A DNA stretch of 64,000 nucleotides from contig CP126191.1 in NCBI GenBank assembly GCA_030272155.1, forward strand, positions 6,284,501-6,348,500. Reading direction: 5' to 3'. The stretch comes from Tetradesmus obliquus. Taxonomy: Eukaryota; Chlorophyta; Chlorophyceae; Sphaeropleales; Scenedesmaceae. A program made the translations under genes and the position numbers. The notes below the pieces were generated by a model that worked only from the letters and a program-made list of their open reading frames with translations, had not been told where the DNA came from and did not search any database. Positions 28,698 through 52,374 of this stretch are shown here, piece after piece (position 1 is the first letter of the stretch; each line of letters opens with the position of its first letter).

Positions 28698-28860
28698 TGC
28701 AAAGAGAGAGAGGCTTGTTACAGGAGAAGGCAAGCTATCACCCGAGAGTGAGTCACTCGCCCTACTTTCAGCTCACATATGCAAAGAGAGAGGCTTGTTA
28801 CAGGAGAAGGCAAGCTATCACCCGAGAGTGAGTCACTCGCCCTACTTTCAGCTCACATAT
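28698..28860. repeat. 80-bp tandem direct repeat, two copies
   Basis: The word AGGCTTGTTACAGGAGAAGG starts at 28711 and again at 28791, and the following 60 bases are repeated without visible change up to 28780 and 28860. The period is 80 bp. The copies differ only by one AG at the left edge of the first. Confidence 0.93.
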
Positions 28861-29475: not shown

Positions 29476-30767
29476 CATTTGTTTGTGTTTGTTACACATG
29501 GGGACCAGGCCATTCCAGCCTCTTGAACTGGCATATCATACCAGCCAGGTAGGGTTTCAAGTCCAACTCCGTCCCCCACCACCATCACGACGAACAGCAA
29601 GTCTGCAGCCTCACTGCCCGCCTAGCAAAATGACCACAATGCTGCAGCAGAACGGAGTGGTCGCCGCCAAGGAACAGCATGGCATGGCAAGCAAGCATGC
29701 AAGCGCAGGGCATGATAAGGCATGCAAGCAACACTTACAGAGACCTGGCTGCAACACCACACTGCTGTTGCTGCATGACAAACACTAAGCTGCACTACAA
29801 GCAAGCAAAAAGAAAACCTTTCCTACCGCTGCAACTAGCTAAGCTGACCTACAAAAAAACAAAAAAACACTCCTGCCACTGACTACATGCAGCAACTCCA
29901 CTGTGTGGCTACACCGTCACCACAAGAATGGGCACCACCACCGCCCTAGGTAGCTGCCCGACCAACAATGCAGTTGACAACCGGCTGATGTGAGTGCAGC
30001 AATATGAATGCAAGCACATTGCTGCTCCCTACGCACAGCAGAGAACCAACCAAGTAGTATACAACGCCCACACAACCTTAATGGCAGGTAATCCACTGGT
30101 CCAGCTGTTGTCCAGAGGTGTGCTGCAGGCACAGCTGCAGCACTGCTGAGTGAACAGCTGACACGGAGAGAGGCTGACACCAAATGTAACAAGCATGTTT
30201 GTGTTTGTTACACATGGGGGCCAGGCAATTCCAGCCTCTTGAACTGGCGTATCATACCAGCCAGGTAGGGTTTCAATTCCAACTCCGTCCCCCACCACCA
30301 TCACGACGGAACAGCAAGTCTGCAGCCTTACTGCCCGCCTAGCAAATTGACCACAATGCTGCAGCAGAACGGAGTGGCCGCCTCCAAGGAACAGCATGGC
30401 ATGGCAAGCAAGCATGCAAGCGCACGGCATGATAGGGCATGCAAGCATACACACTTACAGAGACCTGGCTGCAACACCACACTGCTGTTGCTGCACGACA
30501 AGCACTAGGCTGTACTACATCCAAGCAAGAAGAAAACCACTCCTACCGCTGCGGCTAGCTAACCTGACCTACAAAAACAAAAACCACTCCTACCGCTACC
30601 TACATGCAGCAACTCCACCAGATGGCTACACTGTCGCCACAAGTAAGGGCACCACCACAGCCCCAGGTAGCTGCCCAGACACGTAATGCATTTGACAACG
30701 GCTGATGTGAGAACAGCAATGCGAATGCAAGCACATTGCTGCTCCCTACGCGCAGCAGACACAAACC
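29476..30767. repeat. direct duplication of a ~570-bp unit (29476-30045 and 30192-30767)
   Basis: The two units align along their length, both opening with GTGTTTGTTACACATGGGG and both ending near GCAAGCACATTGCTGCTCCC. Scattered substitutions and small indels separate them, roughly one in ten by eye. A unique spacer of about 145 bp lies between. Neither unit has a protein-like frame. On the minus strand the outer edge of each reads TGTAACAAACAC, which could be a polyadenylation signal, so the unit may be a duplicated non-coding transcript end or a decayed transposon piece. Confidence 0.85.
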
Positions 30768-30833: not shown

Positions 30834-31672
30834 AAAGTGAGACAATTAACACGTGGCGCAGTGGTAATGATGGTCGACTTGTGGCCCAAAGGTTGCAGGT
30901 TCGTAACGGCTACCGTCTGCTGCATGTAATGTTCTTGCAATGGACACTTTGACCATTTGTATGCCTCACGTTCTGTATGTGGTGCCTCCAGCAGCAATGG
31001 ACAGCAGTACCTTGCAGGTAACTGTGCAAGTGGGTCGCTCAAGATCTTGATCACGCTGGGGCAGCCGATCGCACCGCTTCTTGCTTAACGAAGTGCAGCC
31101 TTCAAAAATTGAAATTATTATACAGCAAGAAACTTACATGGCGGTCGATTGACGACGGCAGCAACCTCAGGAGCAGCAGGTTGACCGGCAGTCAAGCAAC
31201 CGCACTCGGGTGAATGAAAGTGACCAGGCAAGCGAGAGGCAGGTGCAAGGCTGACCGCTATGTTTGATTGTTTCTTCCGCCGAAGTTATCAGGGGCGCCA
31301 TTGACCTGCTGACCAACATCTGCTGTTCATCTGACACACTACTTCATTGCCGAGTTCTGAAGGCTGCGATCGCCGACACATGTGCATTCGTATGTGTAGT
31401 CTGTAACGGTGACAGCTAGCTGGGATTGTGCCATGTCAGAGCATAGCGTTGTGCTCGATTCTGAGCCAAAGCCACCCTGGATTCAGGGAAACGTCGGTGA
31501 AACCGAAGGAAGGATACTGCTATGTCCTCGCGGCTCTCCGCAGGATTCCGTTGATTGCTGGCTACGAGAGGCAATATTAGTCGTAGTTTCCGCTCCGTAC
31601 GGGGCGCGGTTGCCGATGCCGATGACAAGGTATGGCTTACAAGAAGACTATTATTATAAAAGTGAGACAATT
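30834..31672 (+). mobile_element. candidate tRNA-derived SINE (retroposon) with 14-bp target-site duplication
   Basis: The 14-mer AAAGTGAGACAATT occurs at 30834-30847 and again at 31659-31672. It encloses an 811-bp unit. Six bases inside the left copy is TGGCGCAGTGG (30854-30864), a match to the RNA polymerase III A box. GGTTGCAGGTTCGTAAC follows, with a B-box-like core GGTTCG at 30899. The A/B spacing fits a tRNA head, but the acceptor and T stems do not pair, so it is not a functional tRNA. The right end is CTTACAAGAAGACTATTATT plus a short AT tail, as expected of a LINE-mobilised retroposon. A truncated relative of this end sits at 43345-43395. The body has no recognised coding content; 811 bp is long for a SINE, so a composite or nested structure is possible (an internal ATTATTATA at 31114). 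Confidence 0.65.
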
Positions 31673-42979: not shown

Positions 42980-44016
42980 TACGGTTGTTGAATGCAGTGC
43001 AGCCGTAAGCTGGGGACGGGTGCTTGATGGGTGCAACGGGTTCATGCCACGCAAACTGTTGTGCAGGGAGGCACTTATGAGAGCAAGTGACGGGCAGCAG
43101 CAGTTGCATCTGGTGTCTGCCAGGCCGTCTCATGGTCAATGGCTGGTTCTTGTCAGAGTTGTGACAACATACGCATACTCTAAGTGCTAGGTGTGCGTAT
43201 GCCATCTGCATGTCAGCATTAAGTAGGTTGCATGATCGCCTTGTCACTTGGCACATTCTGAACACTGCCAGGTCCTACTAGGATAGTATCAGTGGTAGGG
43301 GATGCAGCTGACCAGCAGTGTGTTGCGTCCGTTGTTTATGGTAATAATAATAATAGTCTTCTTGTAAGCCATACCTTGTCATTGGCATCGGCAATCGTTG
43401 TTTATGGTAAACATTGTTGAAGTTCATGGCGATACTTGACACCACCCACCGGCGTGCACGTACATCTGCAAACACTCACAAAAACACGGGACACGCTCAG
43501 TGAACCAGTGTGACACGTACGCACACCAGTGTGCGTACAGTGAGTTGAGCAGCTGGCCGCCAATGACGCCCGTCATAGACGGGTGAGAGCTGCATGTTTG
43601 GCATGGTGGCACTGGTGTGCTAAATTGGCCATCCAGCTTGGGCCAAGCTGGACCAGCTAGCTGGCAGCTGAGAGCAAGCGGCAACAGCACAGCAGTGAAA
43701 TCATGCGTAAGACCTACTGTTGCAGGTACACCAAAGTTTTCAACCGTCATATGCCCAGGAGTGTTGCCAACACCAGGTGCTGTGGAAGCAATTCGATGCA
43801 ATCTGGCGATTGTTGGCAAAGAAAGCAAAGTCACGTTGATCCACTGTGGATCATCCACTCCATTGAAGGGGTTCTTCACCCGGGTCTCAGAACAGTGTTT
43901 GTTGCCAGCTGCTGGTTCACTGCCTTGCTTTGCACCATCGAGCATTGTGCTAAGTAAAAATAAACGGGCTAAAAGGCCACTCAGCACGTTGGGTGGGGAC
44001 AGTTGCAGAATTCGCG
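42980..44016. other. intergenic region between mL43 and DCP2
   Basis: The first part is the mL43 3' UTR and contains a 51-bp retroposon fragment (listed separately). The second part has long open frames on both strands: 200 codons on - (43424-44026) and 158 on + (43617-44093, overlapping the DCP2 start in another frame). The minus frame is compositionally balanced but has no known domain, so it is not called as a gene. Confidence 0.45.
43330..43410 (-). mobile_element. 5'-truncated retroposon fragment with 15-bp target-site duplication
   Basis: CGTTGTTTATGGTAA occurs at 43330-43344 and 43396-43410, exactly flanking 51 bp. On the minus strand these 51 bp read from GCCGATGCCAATGACAAGG through CTTACAAGAAGACTATTATT to a (TTA)n tail. 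The same 3' end occurs at about 31611-31658 with only two or three visible differences. Loss of the 5' part, a simple-repeat tail and a perfect duplication of the target are the signs of LINE-type target-primed insertion. Confidence 0.75.
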
Positions 44017-50021: not shown

Positions 50022-52374
50022 CTACACAGATGTGTCAGCAATGAGGGGACTGCGCTCTTCAGTGCTGCTGCCACCATCAGGTGCCTCCTTGCCAGGGGCC
50101 CTGGCCTTGCTGAACCACACCGCCAGCTGCAGAGCAACTGCTGCCACCATGGCAGCTGCAGCAGCCACCAGCAGCACCAGAGTCACCCACCCAGGGACCT
50201 GCCCCTGCCTGCTGCCATCAGCAGCAGCTGCAGGTGGCGTGGTGGCTGCTGCTGCAGCTGCTGCCAGCGCAGCATCATTTGCCGCAATGCCGAATGATCG
50301 CAGCTGCTGGGCATTGTTGCGGGGGGCAGGTGTTGTGGGCTGCTGCTGCTGCAGCAGCTCTGCCTTGCCACTGCTGACAGCTTGAACCTCGCCCTGCTGA
50401 GCAGCAGCATCATGCTGCGCTGCTGCCTCCTGCTCCTCCTCGTGGCACTTGGCCTTCTTTGCTGCCTCCTTTGCCGCTTTCTTTGCTGCTTTCTTGCCTG
50501 CCTTCTTTGCTGCTTTCTTTGATTCTTTGGTTGATTCCTTGAAATCCTTGGGCTCAAGCTTGGGTATCTTCACCAGGTTGCAGTTGAAGTTGGGTGGCGC
50601 AGGTGCAGCAGCTGTGACTGATGAATCATGAGCACTGCCTGCAGGGCTGCCTGAGCTGGCTGCGAGCTTTGCAGCGCGGTGCGGGTGTGGACCCTCCACG
50701 CAGTCGATGGGCCGCAGCTTTTTGTCGATGCACATCCACACCTGCAGAAACAGACAGCGACAAGGCGATGTGCAGCACACATCCGCAGAAGAAAGGGTCG
50801 GCCGTGTGCTGGGCGCAGCGCGACAGCGCTTTAGCAGCAGGCCACCGCTTGTGCACACTTGCAGGTGGCACGGGCATCACATGCCGGCAGCACCTCTTGG
50901 CAGCATCATATAAAGGCAGGCTGCTACTCTGCGTTTTGGTGATGCGTCAGCCAGTGTGTGGTCAAATCACTAGCCTAACAACTCAAAGGCTGCCCAGTTG
51001 GCCCTGTCGGTGGCTAAGATCCCTTGAAACCAAACATACTAGTCGAGCAGGTCGAAGTACTTTAACCACACACACGCCTGCAAGTGTCCGTCCCTTCGGT
51101 GCCGTGCCACAGACCCCTGCCTTAGCCCTTTGCCTCACCTCTGCCAGCTCGCCCTTGTCATCGCAGGTGATGTGCGGCATCACGCCATACGCATCGTCCA
51201 GTGCGTGGTGCAGCGCCTGGACGTGGTAGCGCGCATAGTTGGAGGGCACAATGCCGCGCGCCTCAAACGCTTCCTGCGGCACCATGACGCGCAACAGCAG
51301 GAGCAGCAGCGGGTGTCAGCACGCATGTGCAGCTCTGCCTTGCGCTGCGGTGACTAGGGGTGCTTTGCTCTCAAGCAGGTGTGGGGTGTTGCTTGCCCAC
51401 AAGGAGACTGCAGGATTCACACCGTGTTGCTGTGTGCATGCATACGTAGTCAGTATGCACAATGCCCGATGGCCCTTGCAGGACGCACTTGCTGCACTTT
51501 TGTGCAGCGCAGCTGTCTTCAGGGCAGGTGCCAAGCTGCTGCTGCTGCCTCACGCTATCATTGCGCACCTGGATGTTCAGCTTGTTGTGCAGGCTGAGCA
51601 CTGCCTTGAAGAACGCGTGCTGCTGGCCCACAACGCCCTCAGCGCATGTGCCGTGCCGCGTCCACTCGTGGTTCCAGAAGGTCTCATCATCGCTGGACCA
51701 GCTGGGCCACACTTTCTCCAGCTCAGGCAGCAAGTCCTCAATTTCATCCATGTCCAGCTCGCTGGAGGAGTCACAGAACTGAGGCCAGGTGCCATCACGG
51801 CGCTGTGGCCACAGGCCATGCACTGTAAAGGCATACCTGCAGGGAGTACATGTGAAGGCGGTTGAGGACAGTGGGGCGTTTGGCAGGAGACAGCAGCAGT
51901 GGTTATCTTGTGACTATAACTGCTTCAAGGACGGGCGCATGCCTGCTCACAATGCCTAATTGGAGGTTGTTGGTGCAGGATGTTAGCTTGACGTCGAGGT
52001 AATGCGGTCAGGGCTAGTGAGGCGCGTCTCAGGGACAAGCAACAGCACTCACTTCTTGGGAGGCCGGTGAGTGCAGAAGTGGTCGTTGCAGAAGGTAGCT
52101 GGCCATTGCCTGCAGAAAAGCAGCATAGATTTAGATATCTCGCGGTTTGGCAAGAGGATCAAGGCAGGCAATGCCAGCACAGTTCCTCCTTGCCCCTTGT
52201 TGTTCCACTGCGAGAACCTAAACGATTACGGTCGGAGGTCTATGGTCAATCTCACCGGACAAGATAGAAGTAGTCGAAGTCTACTTTGCTGTTATCTTCC
52301 ACTTGCGAGGTTGCTGAGGCAGCAAGCACGGCTCCAAGCAGAATCAGCACACTCAGAGCCCGTGTTGTTGCCAT
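50022..52374 (-). CDS. RNase T2-family ribonuclease with C-terminal membrane anchor
   Basis: Five exons join in frame to 432 residues (reverse order): 52256-52374, 52053-52109, 51569-51836, 51139-51273, 50022-50741. Residues 1-22 are a signal peptide (LSVLILLGAVLAASA). The T2 catalytic motifs are intact: CAS I HGLWPQ (H65) and CAS II WNHEWTRHGTC (H115, E116, H120), plus QWPATFC and several paired cysteines. The enzyme should cleave RNA to 2',3'-cyclic phosphates in the secretory or vacuolar lumen. After the normal end of the family (about residue 230) there is an Ala/Lys-rich stretch with repeated KKAAKKA units, a Gln/Ala linker, one membrane helix (378-403, VTLVLLVAAAAAMVAAVAL) and a short tail ending in EERSPLIADTSV. 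Most T2 enzymes are soluble, so the anchor is unusual. Confidence 0.93.

Follow-up and report, generated by a model that had tools for sequence, protein, structure and literature searches.

A nested and internally deleted copy of SINE-A, a young SINE-type retroposon family, at an 811-bp locus of a green algal genome

The question raised by this locus is whether 811 bp of DNA, enclosed by an exact target-site duplication, constitute one complete retroposon of a kind not described before, which is how a first-pass annotation of the window (the whole stretch of DNA analysed, 64,000 nucleotides of contig C1) had read them. The answer is very probably that they are one copy, no longer intact, of a short and non-autonomous family of retroposons, named SINE-A here (~385 bp), which would be mobilised in trans by a LINE; the copy is interrupted in its B box by a 551-bp insert and has lost 105 nt.

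The outline of the locus was drawn correctly. Both 14-bp copies of AAAGTGAGACAATT are exact (coordinates of all features are collected in Table 1), and they are not part of a longer duplication: a search of the entire window for exact 14-mer pairs spaced 600-1000 bp apart, with low-complexity words removed, returned 15 runs, among which the AAAGTGAGACAATT pair is the single run at its own spacing, 13 runs have a spacing of 716-720 bp, and one lies at 50354/51329. (The 13 runs have their source in a tandem duplication of ~716-720 bp, 29482-30034 / 30198-30751, which lies to the left of the SINE and ends before 30834.) An A box begins six bases inside the left end, as proposed, and the right end of the enclosed DNA is CTTACAAGAAGACTATTATT. 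Both boxes were judged against the pol III consensus. The B-box core at tRNA spacing is half right: its left half, GGTTCG, is in place, with box starts 44 nt apart, and the remainder is found on the far side of the 551-bp insert. This pairing of A box and GGTTCG is unique in the window on either strand. The claim that the 811 bp lack coding capacity is borne out by a longest stop-free frame of 86 codons. (A Pfam search of ten frames from the window gave weak matches in three of the ten, and one kinase match above the cut-off.) The conserved 3' motif, at up to three mismatches, occurs twice in the window, once in the 811-bp stretch and once at 43349-43370 on the minus strand, vs no occurrence in 100 shuffles. 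The latter belongs to the severely truncated second insertion already suspected near 43 kb: it consists of ~51 bp, corresponding to the terminal 51 nt of SINE-A, and is bounded by its own exact 15-bp duplication, TTACCATAAACAACG.

Table 1. Features of the 811-bp locus and of the second SINE-A copy (window coordinates)
Feature	Position	Strand	Basis
Left target-site duplication AAAGTGAGACAATT, 14 bp	30834..30847	.	exact isolated direct repeat
SINE head: 6 nt, A box, to left B-box half; 18 nt of leader absent 5'	30848..30903	+	alignment with full copies L007, L009, L028, L058
Pol III A box TGGCGCAGTGG	30854..30864	+	sequence
Left B-box half GGTTCG of GGTTCGATTCT, cut by insert	30898..30903	+	GGTTCGATTCT read in L007, L009, L028
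Nested insert, 551 bp, TCG on each side (30901-30903, 31455-31457)	30904..31454	.	two genomic places; missing from other aligned copies
SINE body, family positions ~71-188, beginning with right B-box half	31455..31565	+	90-92% match to other full-length matches
Junction of 105-nt internal deletion, family positions 189-293 gone	31565..31566	+	alignment
SINE 3' domain, terminating CTTACAAGAAGACTATTATTATA	31566..31658	+	96-99% match to many copies; 69 exact 24-mer tails
Conserved 3' end motif GGCTTACAAGAAGACTATTATT	31634..31655	+	motif search
Right target-site duplication AAAGTGAGACAATT	31659..31672	.	exact direct repeat
Second copy, severely 5'-truncated, last 51 nt	43345..43395	-	motif search and alignment
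43-kb target-site duplication TTACCATAAACAACG, 5' side in minus-strand sense	43396..43410	.	exact repeat
43-kb target-site duplication TTACCATAAACAACG, 3' side	43330..43344	.	exact repeat

That a family exists is evident from the genome (104.66 Mb in 17 contigs). The 811-bp query has 57 matches among the best 40 of 156 candidates, and in these query positions 1-56, 608-718 and 719-811 recur jointly without 57-607, with ~105 bp lying between 718 and 719. Copies that reach the leader (L007, L009, L028 and L058) measure 381-387 bp to the first tail repeats. The exact 24-mer tail is found at 69 places (36 forward and 33 reverse; none for the reversed control), and a 20-mer of the tail, at up to three mismatches, at 170 (control, four). 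A 91-bp head query gives 11 matches: six SINE-A copies that start within the first three bases, three partial SINE-A copies, the window copy among them, and two members of another family. Head and tail do occur together elsewhere: six SINE-A copies other than that of the window reach the leader, the tail is also seen in five of them, and C5:5179935 is represented by head and body only. At 385 bp the full unit is within SINE size (< ~700 bp), and it is non-coding as judged from frame length (between stops there are at most 125 codons on the minus strand and 97 on the plus strand).

SINE-A is young, since 37 of the 42 matches to a 185-bp body query (best 40 of 45 candidates) are at least 94% identical; 13 of the 42 extend to the first base of the query and the others start at graded later points. 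With copies so nearly identical and their duplications intact, strains can be compared directly for insertion polymorphism. Few SINEs have been described from green algae, to which SINE-A adds a young family. Word searches of the literature, as opposed to sequence comparison with Repbase, found no description of SINE-A, and as far as searched it is a new SINE-type family, of which the 811-bp copy is a nested, partly deleted representative rather than a new element of 811 bp.

The head of SINE-A carries TGGCGCAGTGG and GGTTCGATTCT as its two boxes in L007 and L009; the A box of L028 shows a single change, and the B box of L058 a 5-nt deletion. A real tRNA gene in this place was considered and is unsupported, ARAGORN finding no gene in the SINE-A head and Rfam no tRNA match up to E 10; boxes and spacing alone weakly favour descent from a tRNA. 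At the other end, 43 of 48 copies have three or more TAT units (range 1-23; TATT already closes the motif used in the search). No match to the SINE-A tail was found in viral contigs. Some tails lie within tandem arrays: six places in C8:246454-310762, with three of five spacings equal to 10568 bp, and four places in C17:384322-395812, spaced 3830 bp. In the C17 array the longest frame in the 3.9 kb that precede the first tail is 167 aa, and the SINE there is a truncated fragment.

Measured against the full unit, the reading of the locus as a complete element of 811 bp fails: 551 bp are foreign, and 18 nt of the 5' leader and the 105 nt at family positions 189-293 are missing. The contiguity created by the deletion, across 31565/31566, has no other match among the best 40 of 156 candidates. 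The insert is missing from the other aligned SINE-A copies. Where the intact site reads GGTTCGATTC, the window copy reads GGT-TCG-insert-TCG-ATTC, and taking out the insert together with one TCG restores ...GGTTCGATTCTGAGCC..., the B box as it stands in L007, L009 and L028. (What this means operationally is that a nested insert and a deletion can make a single SINE copy resemble a novel element of 811 bp.) An internal ATTATTATA at ~31114, previously taken as a sign of a composite, is part of the insert and bears no relation to the tail; as the tail of a second retroposon it is rejected on the evidence of the only other genomic copy of the insert, which does not contain it.

That other copy, at C13:2862754-2863297, is 87% identical over the full length of the insert (two places found, two of two candidates scored), has no SINE around it, and ceases to be similar at both insert ends. 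The insert is a discrete unit with identical borders in two unrelated contexts, and it is flanked by TCG at the window site, features that would suit a low-copy DNA transposon or another mobile element making 3-bp duplications. We entertain this origin only tentatively, as somewhat the weaker side of the matter, because no evident terminal inverted repeats are seen, because only two places are known, the one on C13 showing no clean 3-bp duplication, and because genomic DNA patched in by templated repair would fit equally well. (The insert contains no stop-free frame longer than 63 codons.) Repair-templated insertion is the only reading with which this one competes; the identification of the surrounding DNA as a SINE is unaffected by the choice.

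How SINE-A copies come to be inserted can be read from their ends. Forty-eight distinct copies were compared, made up of the best matches to the 811 bp and the first 30 exact tail places, with identical contexts collapsed; this is a non-random sample, found through its tails. In 40 of the 48, exact repeats of 9 bp or more are found close to the two ends of the SINE match, whose start is graded from position 1 to position 357. The leader is present in four copies and absent from 44. As a control, the left flank of one copy was paired with the right flank of another; 26 of 2256 such pairs pass, corresponding to 0.55 expected per 48. Among the full copies, L009, L028 and L007 (385-387 bp) are flanked by exact duplications whose lengths are 12, 13 and 15 bp, respectively, and L058 has a low-complexity 9-mer. 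The eight copies in which the script saw no duplication of at least 9 bp are L013, L021, L023, L043, L048, the edge-cut L030 on the plus strand, L091 in a tandem array, and the window copy, which was missed because its match is split (its 14 bp are seen by eye). Graded 5' truncation together with duplications implies that insertion of SINE-A begins at the 3' end and often halts early, as in target-primed reverse transcription; the best fit is this process carried out in trans by a LINE. Heavy 5' truncation is uncommon among SINEs.

A different reading of the family takes each copy for the 5'-truncated end of a LINE, the SINE body being the LINE's 3' UTR and the tRNA-like head a rare fusion: graded truncation is LINE-typical, and 44 of the 48 copies (in a sample found by its tails) are without leader. 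It is nonetheless an improbable reading. In 40 of the 48 the start of the SINE match coincides, or nearly so, with the duplication belonging to that copy; leader and head are present together in six copies; and no listed copy has any of 150 reverse transcriptase domains on its 5' side within a distance of 9.6 kb. When 47 upstream flanks were intercompared, nine pairs showed some similarity, and in no pair was the common stretch directly next to the SINE in each of the two copies, so that no LINE 3' UTR is visible in the upstream flanks. That the whole 811 bp move as a composite of insert and SINE together, as the 14-bp duplication surrounding all of it might suggest, is less credible still, since the two are joined only at this locus among the 57 matches (best 40 of 156 candidates), the insert by itself is known from a second place without SINE (two of two candidates scored), and it breaks the B box.

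As first supposed, the locus is a retroposon insertion: its head is a promoter of tRNA type, its 3' end is fixed and LINE-like, and it has a duplication of its own. SINE-A can be thought of as follows. A pol III-type internal promoter, made up of the A and B boxes behind a leader of ~24-25 nt, would direct transcription of an RNA that continues through a family-specific body and a 3' domain to (ATT)n. A LINE reverse transcriptase would recognise this RNA in trans through its 3' end; the target would be nicked and cDNA synthesised from the 3' end, frequently stopping early and leaving a duplication of 9-17 bp. In the window copy, the 551-bp segment entered the B box, with duplication of TCG, and the 105 nt were lost, probably after that copy had landed; the reverse order is less likely.

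What the reverse transcriptase recognises may be a feature of the 3' domain. On folding the last 92 nt, z = -2.25 was obtained for L009 and z = -1.21 for the window copy. Complementarity between the 3'-terminal GACTATTATT and AATAATAGTC, which lies at position 301, closes the domain. The 10-mer AATAATAGTC does not occur in 2000 shuffles of the SINE; it is intact in 30 of the 33 copies that reach position 301, but not in the window copy. On the hypothesis that the predicted GACTATTATT/AATAATAGTC pairing is the recognised element, it should be borne in mind that the pairing was noticed after folding, that covariation cannot be looked for among copies so similar, and that dead copies are under no selection.

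A LINE with a matching 3' end, which the first-pass annotation had expected, was not found: of 150 reverse transcriptase domains (PF00078; 150 of 267 candidates scored), none has SINE-A downstream in the same orientation at a distance of up to 9.6 kb, for 129 listed SINE-A places (inexact tails entering with 100 of 170 places). The only same-strand pair within 15 kb, on C4 and 9.67 kb apart, is not credible as a partner, and comparison by eye of zf-RVT and Exo_endo_phos_2 matches with the tails disclosed nothing closer than this pair. LINE family A (L083, L086, L087 and L090) is excluded as partner by its (ATGTA)n-type 3' repeats. A reverse transcriptase copy with a large ORF at C11:3148112 has no SINE-A tail in nine short pieces, which stop short of covering its 3' end; its frame is open in three pieces up to 3152499 and stopped in four of six later pieces. 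In Chlamydomonas the 3' ends of SINEX families with (ATT)n match LINEs of the RandI/Dualen type, and SINEX-3 matches L1-1_CR, according to PMC3747384. It is because of that pairing that our guess for the likeliest partner clade of SINE-A, made by analogy, falls on RandI/Dualen; a partner of this type would carry a 3' end of the form ...CTTACAAGAAGAC(TAT)n. LINE-type reverse transcriptase or zf-RVT matches are clustered on C1 at ~4.95-5.02 and 7.98-8.06 Mb, on C8 at ~1.47-1.54 Mb and on C14 at ~1.38-1.50 Mb, and these clusters resemble the Zepp-like centromeric LINE clusters of other green algae as described in PMC8226300.

The two head matches outside SINE-A belong to a second family, SINE-B, with 327 bp and (TTC)n, represented by L093 (C8:5038027-5038353), L094 (C8:1490599-1490925) and L095 (C1:8012081-8012407). 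These two matches, C8:5038281 and C8:1490877, lie beside reverse transcriptase domains and were considered as LINE/SINE fusions, an interpretation rejected when reading of the sequence revealed SINE-B. Several SINE-B copies share stretches with LINE-type reverse transcriptase domains (C1 ~8.0 Mb, C8 ~1.5 and 5.04 Mb). The first 25 nt of SINE-B are identical to those of SINE-A; a different tRNA-like part (TGGTGTAGTGG...GTTTCGAGCCC) and a different body follow, with the (TTC)n end seen in L095. A SINE-B query has 30 matches (28 of 28 candidates), four of which are SINE-A heads. SINE-B is likewise mostly 5'-truncated, since 24 of the other 26 end at 326-327 and only three start at 1. Both ends of L095 carry an exact repeat of 19 nt, part of which falls inside the TTC run. 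L093 sits between two copies of a 63-bp repeat, which provides no evidence of target duplication because this repeat occurs elsewhere too. A 69-bp repeat (with GAGAGAGGCTTGTTACAGGAGAAGGCAAGCTATCACCCGAGAGTGAGTCACTCGCCC) also flanks L093, lies near SINE-A copies (L009/L017, L018), is present in L067, and has two copies in the window, 80 bp apart (28708-28776 and 28788-28856).

The leader pattern, at up to three mismatches, occurs at 11 places (control, none): six are SINE-A, three are SINE-B and two are neither. One of these two, L096 (C1:9344461-9344486), was read directly and has neither SINE behind the leader; the other, C8:5040123-5040148, is probably also without either, to go by its absence from the head and SINE-B searches. 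In L095 an inverted copy of the leader precedes the leader (CCACGTGTTTAA...TTAAACACGTGG; 384-421, reverse complement 21-58), forming a near-perfect hairpin that resembles a reverse transcriptase snap-back. Since SINE-A and SINE-B, which differ in tRNA-like part, body and 3' end, have an identical leader that is also found alone at least once, this leader might conceivably be a module in its own right, attached to the 5' ends of new retroposon RNAs, for example by template switching of the reverse transcriptase, SINEs then being built from three exchangeable parts. This seems to us a doubtful proposition at present; shared descent, with the tRNA-like part changed later, is one reading of the same identity. 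Central and 3' domains of SINEs are known to be shared between families. Different heads sharing the stretch before the A box would, if true, be unusual, and a leader common to two families could inform how new SINEs acquire their 5' ends.

Comparison with known systems places SINE-A as follows. SINE-B is its closest counterpart in the same genome, with the same 25-nt leader, the same placement of A/B-like boxes and the same graded 5' truncation, and with another tRNA-like part, body and 3' repeat. In Chlamydomonas reinhardtii, SINEX-1, -4, -5 and -6 have (ATT)n ends and SINEX-5 and -6 are of tRNA type, and the 3' repeats of RandI-clade LINEs are (ATT)n or (CTATTT)n (PMC3747384). SINE-A is like SINEX in being a green-algal SINE with an (ATT)n end, a likeness drawn from descriptions and not from sequence comparison; it differs in that no partner LINE has been found for it, vs the RandI-clade partners that PMC3747384 gives for SINEX. 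Among tRNA-derived SINEs of the stringent 3'-end type, such as those in the LINE/SINE pairs reviewed in PMC3747384, SINE-A stands apart in that its head goes unrecognised as tRNA by ARAGORN and Rfam and in that most of the copies read are 5'-truncated, and it resembles them in its tRNA-spaced A and B boxes, its conserved 3' domain with predicted hairpins, its short 3' repeat and its target-site duplications.
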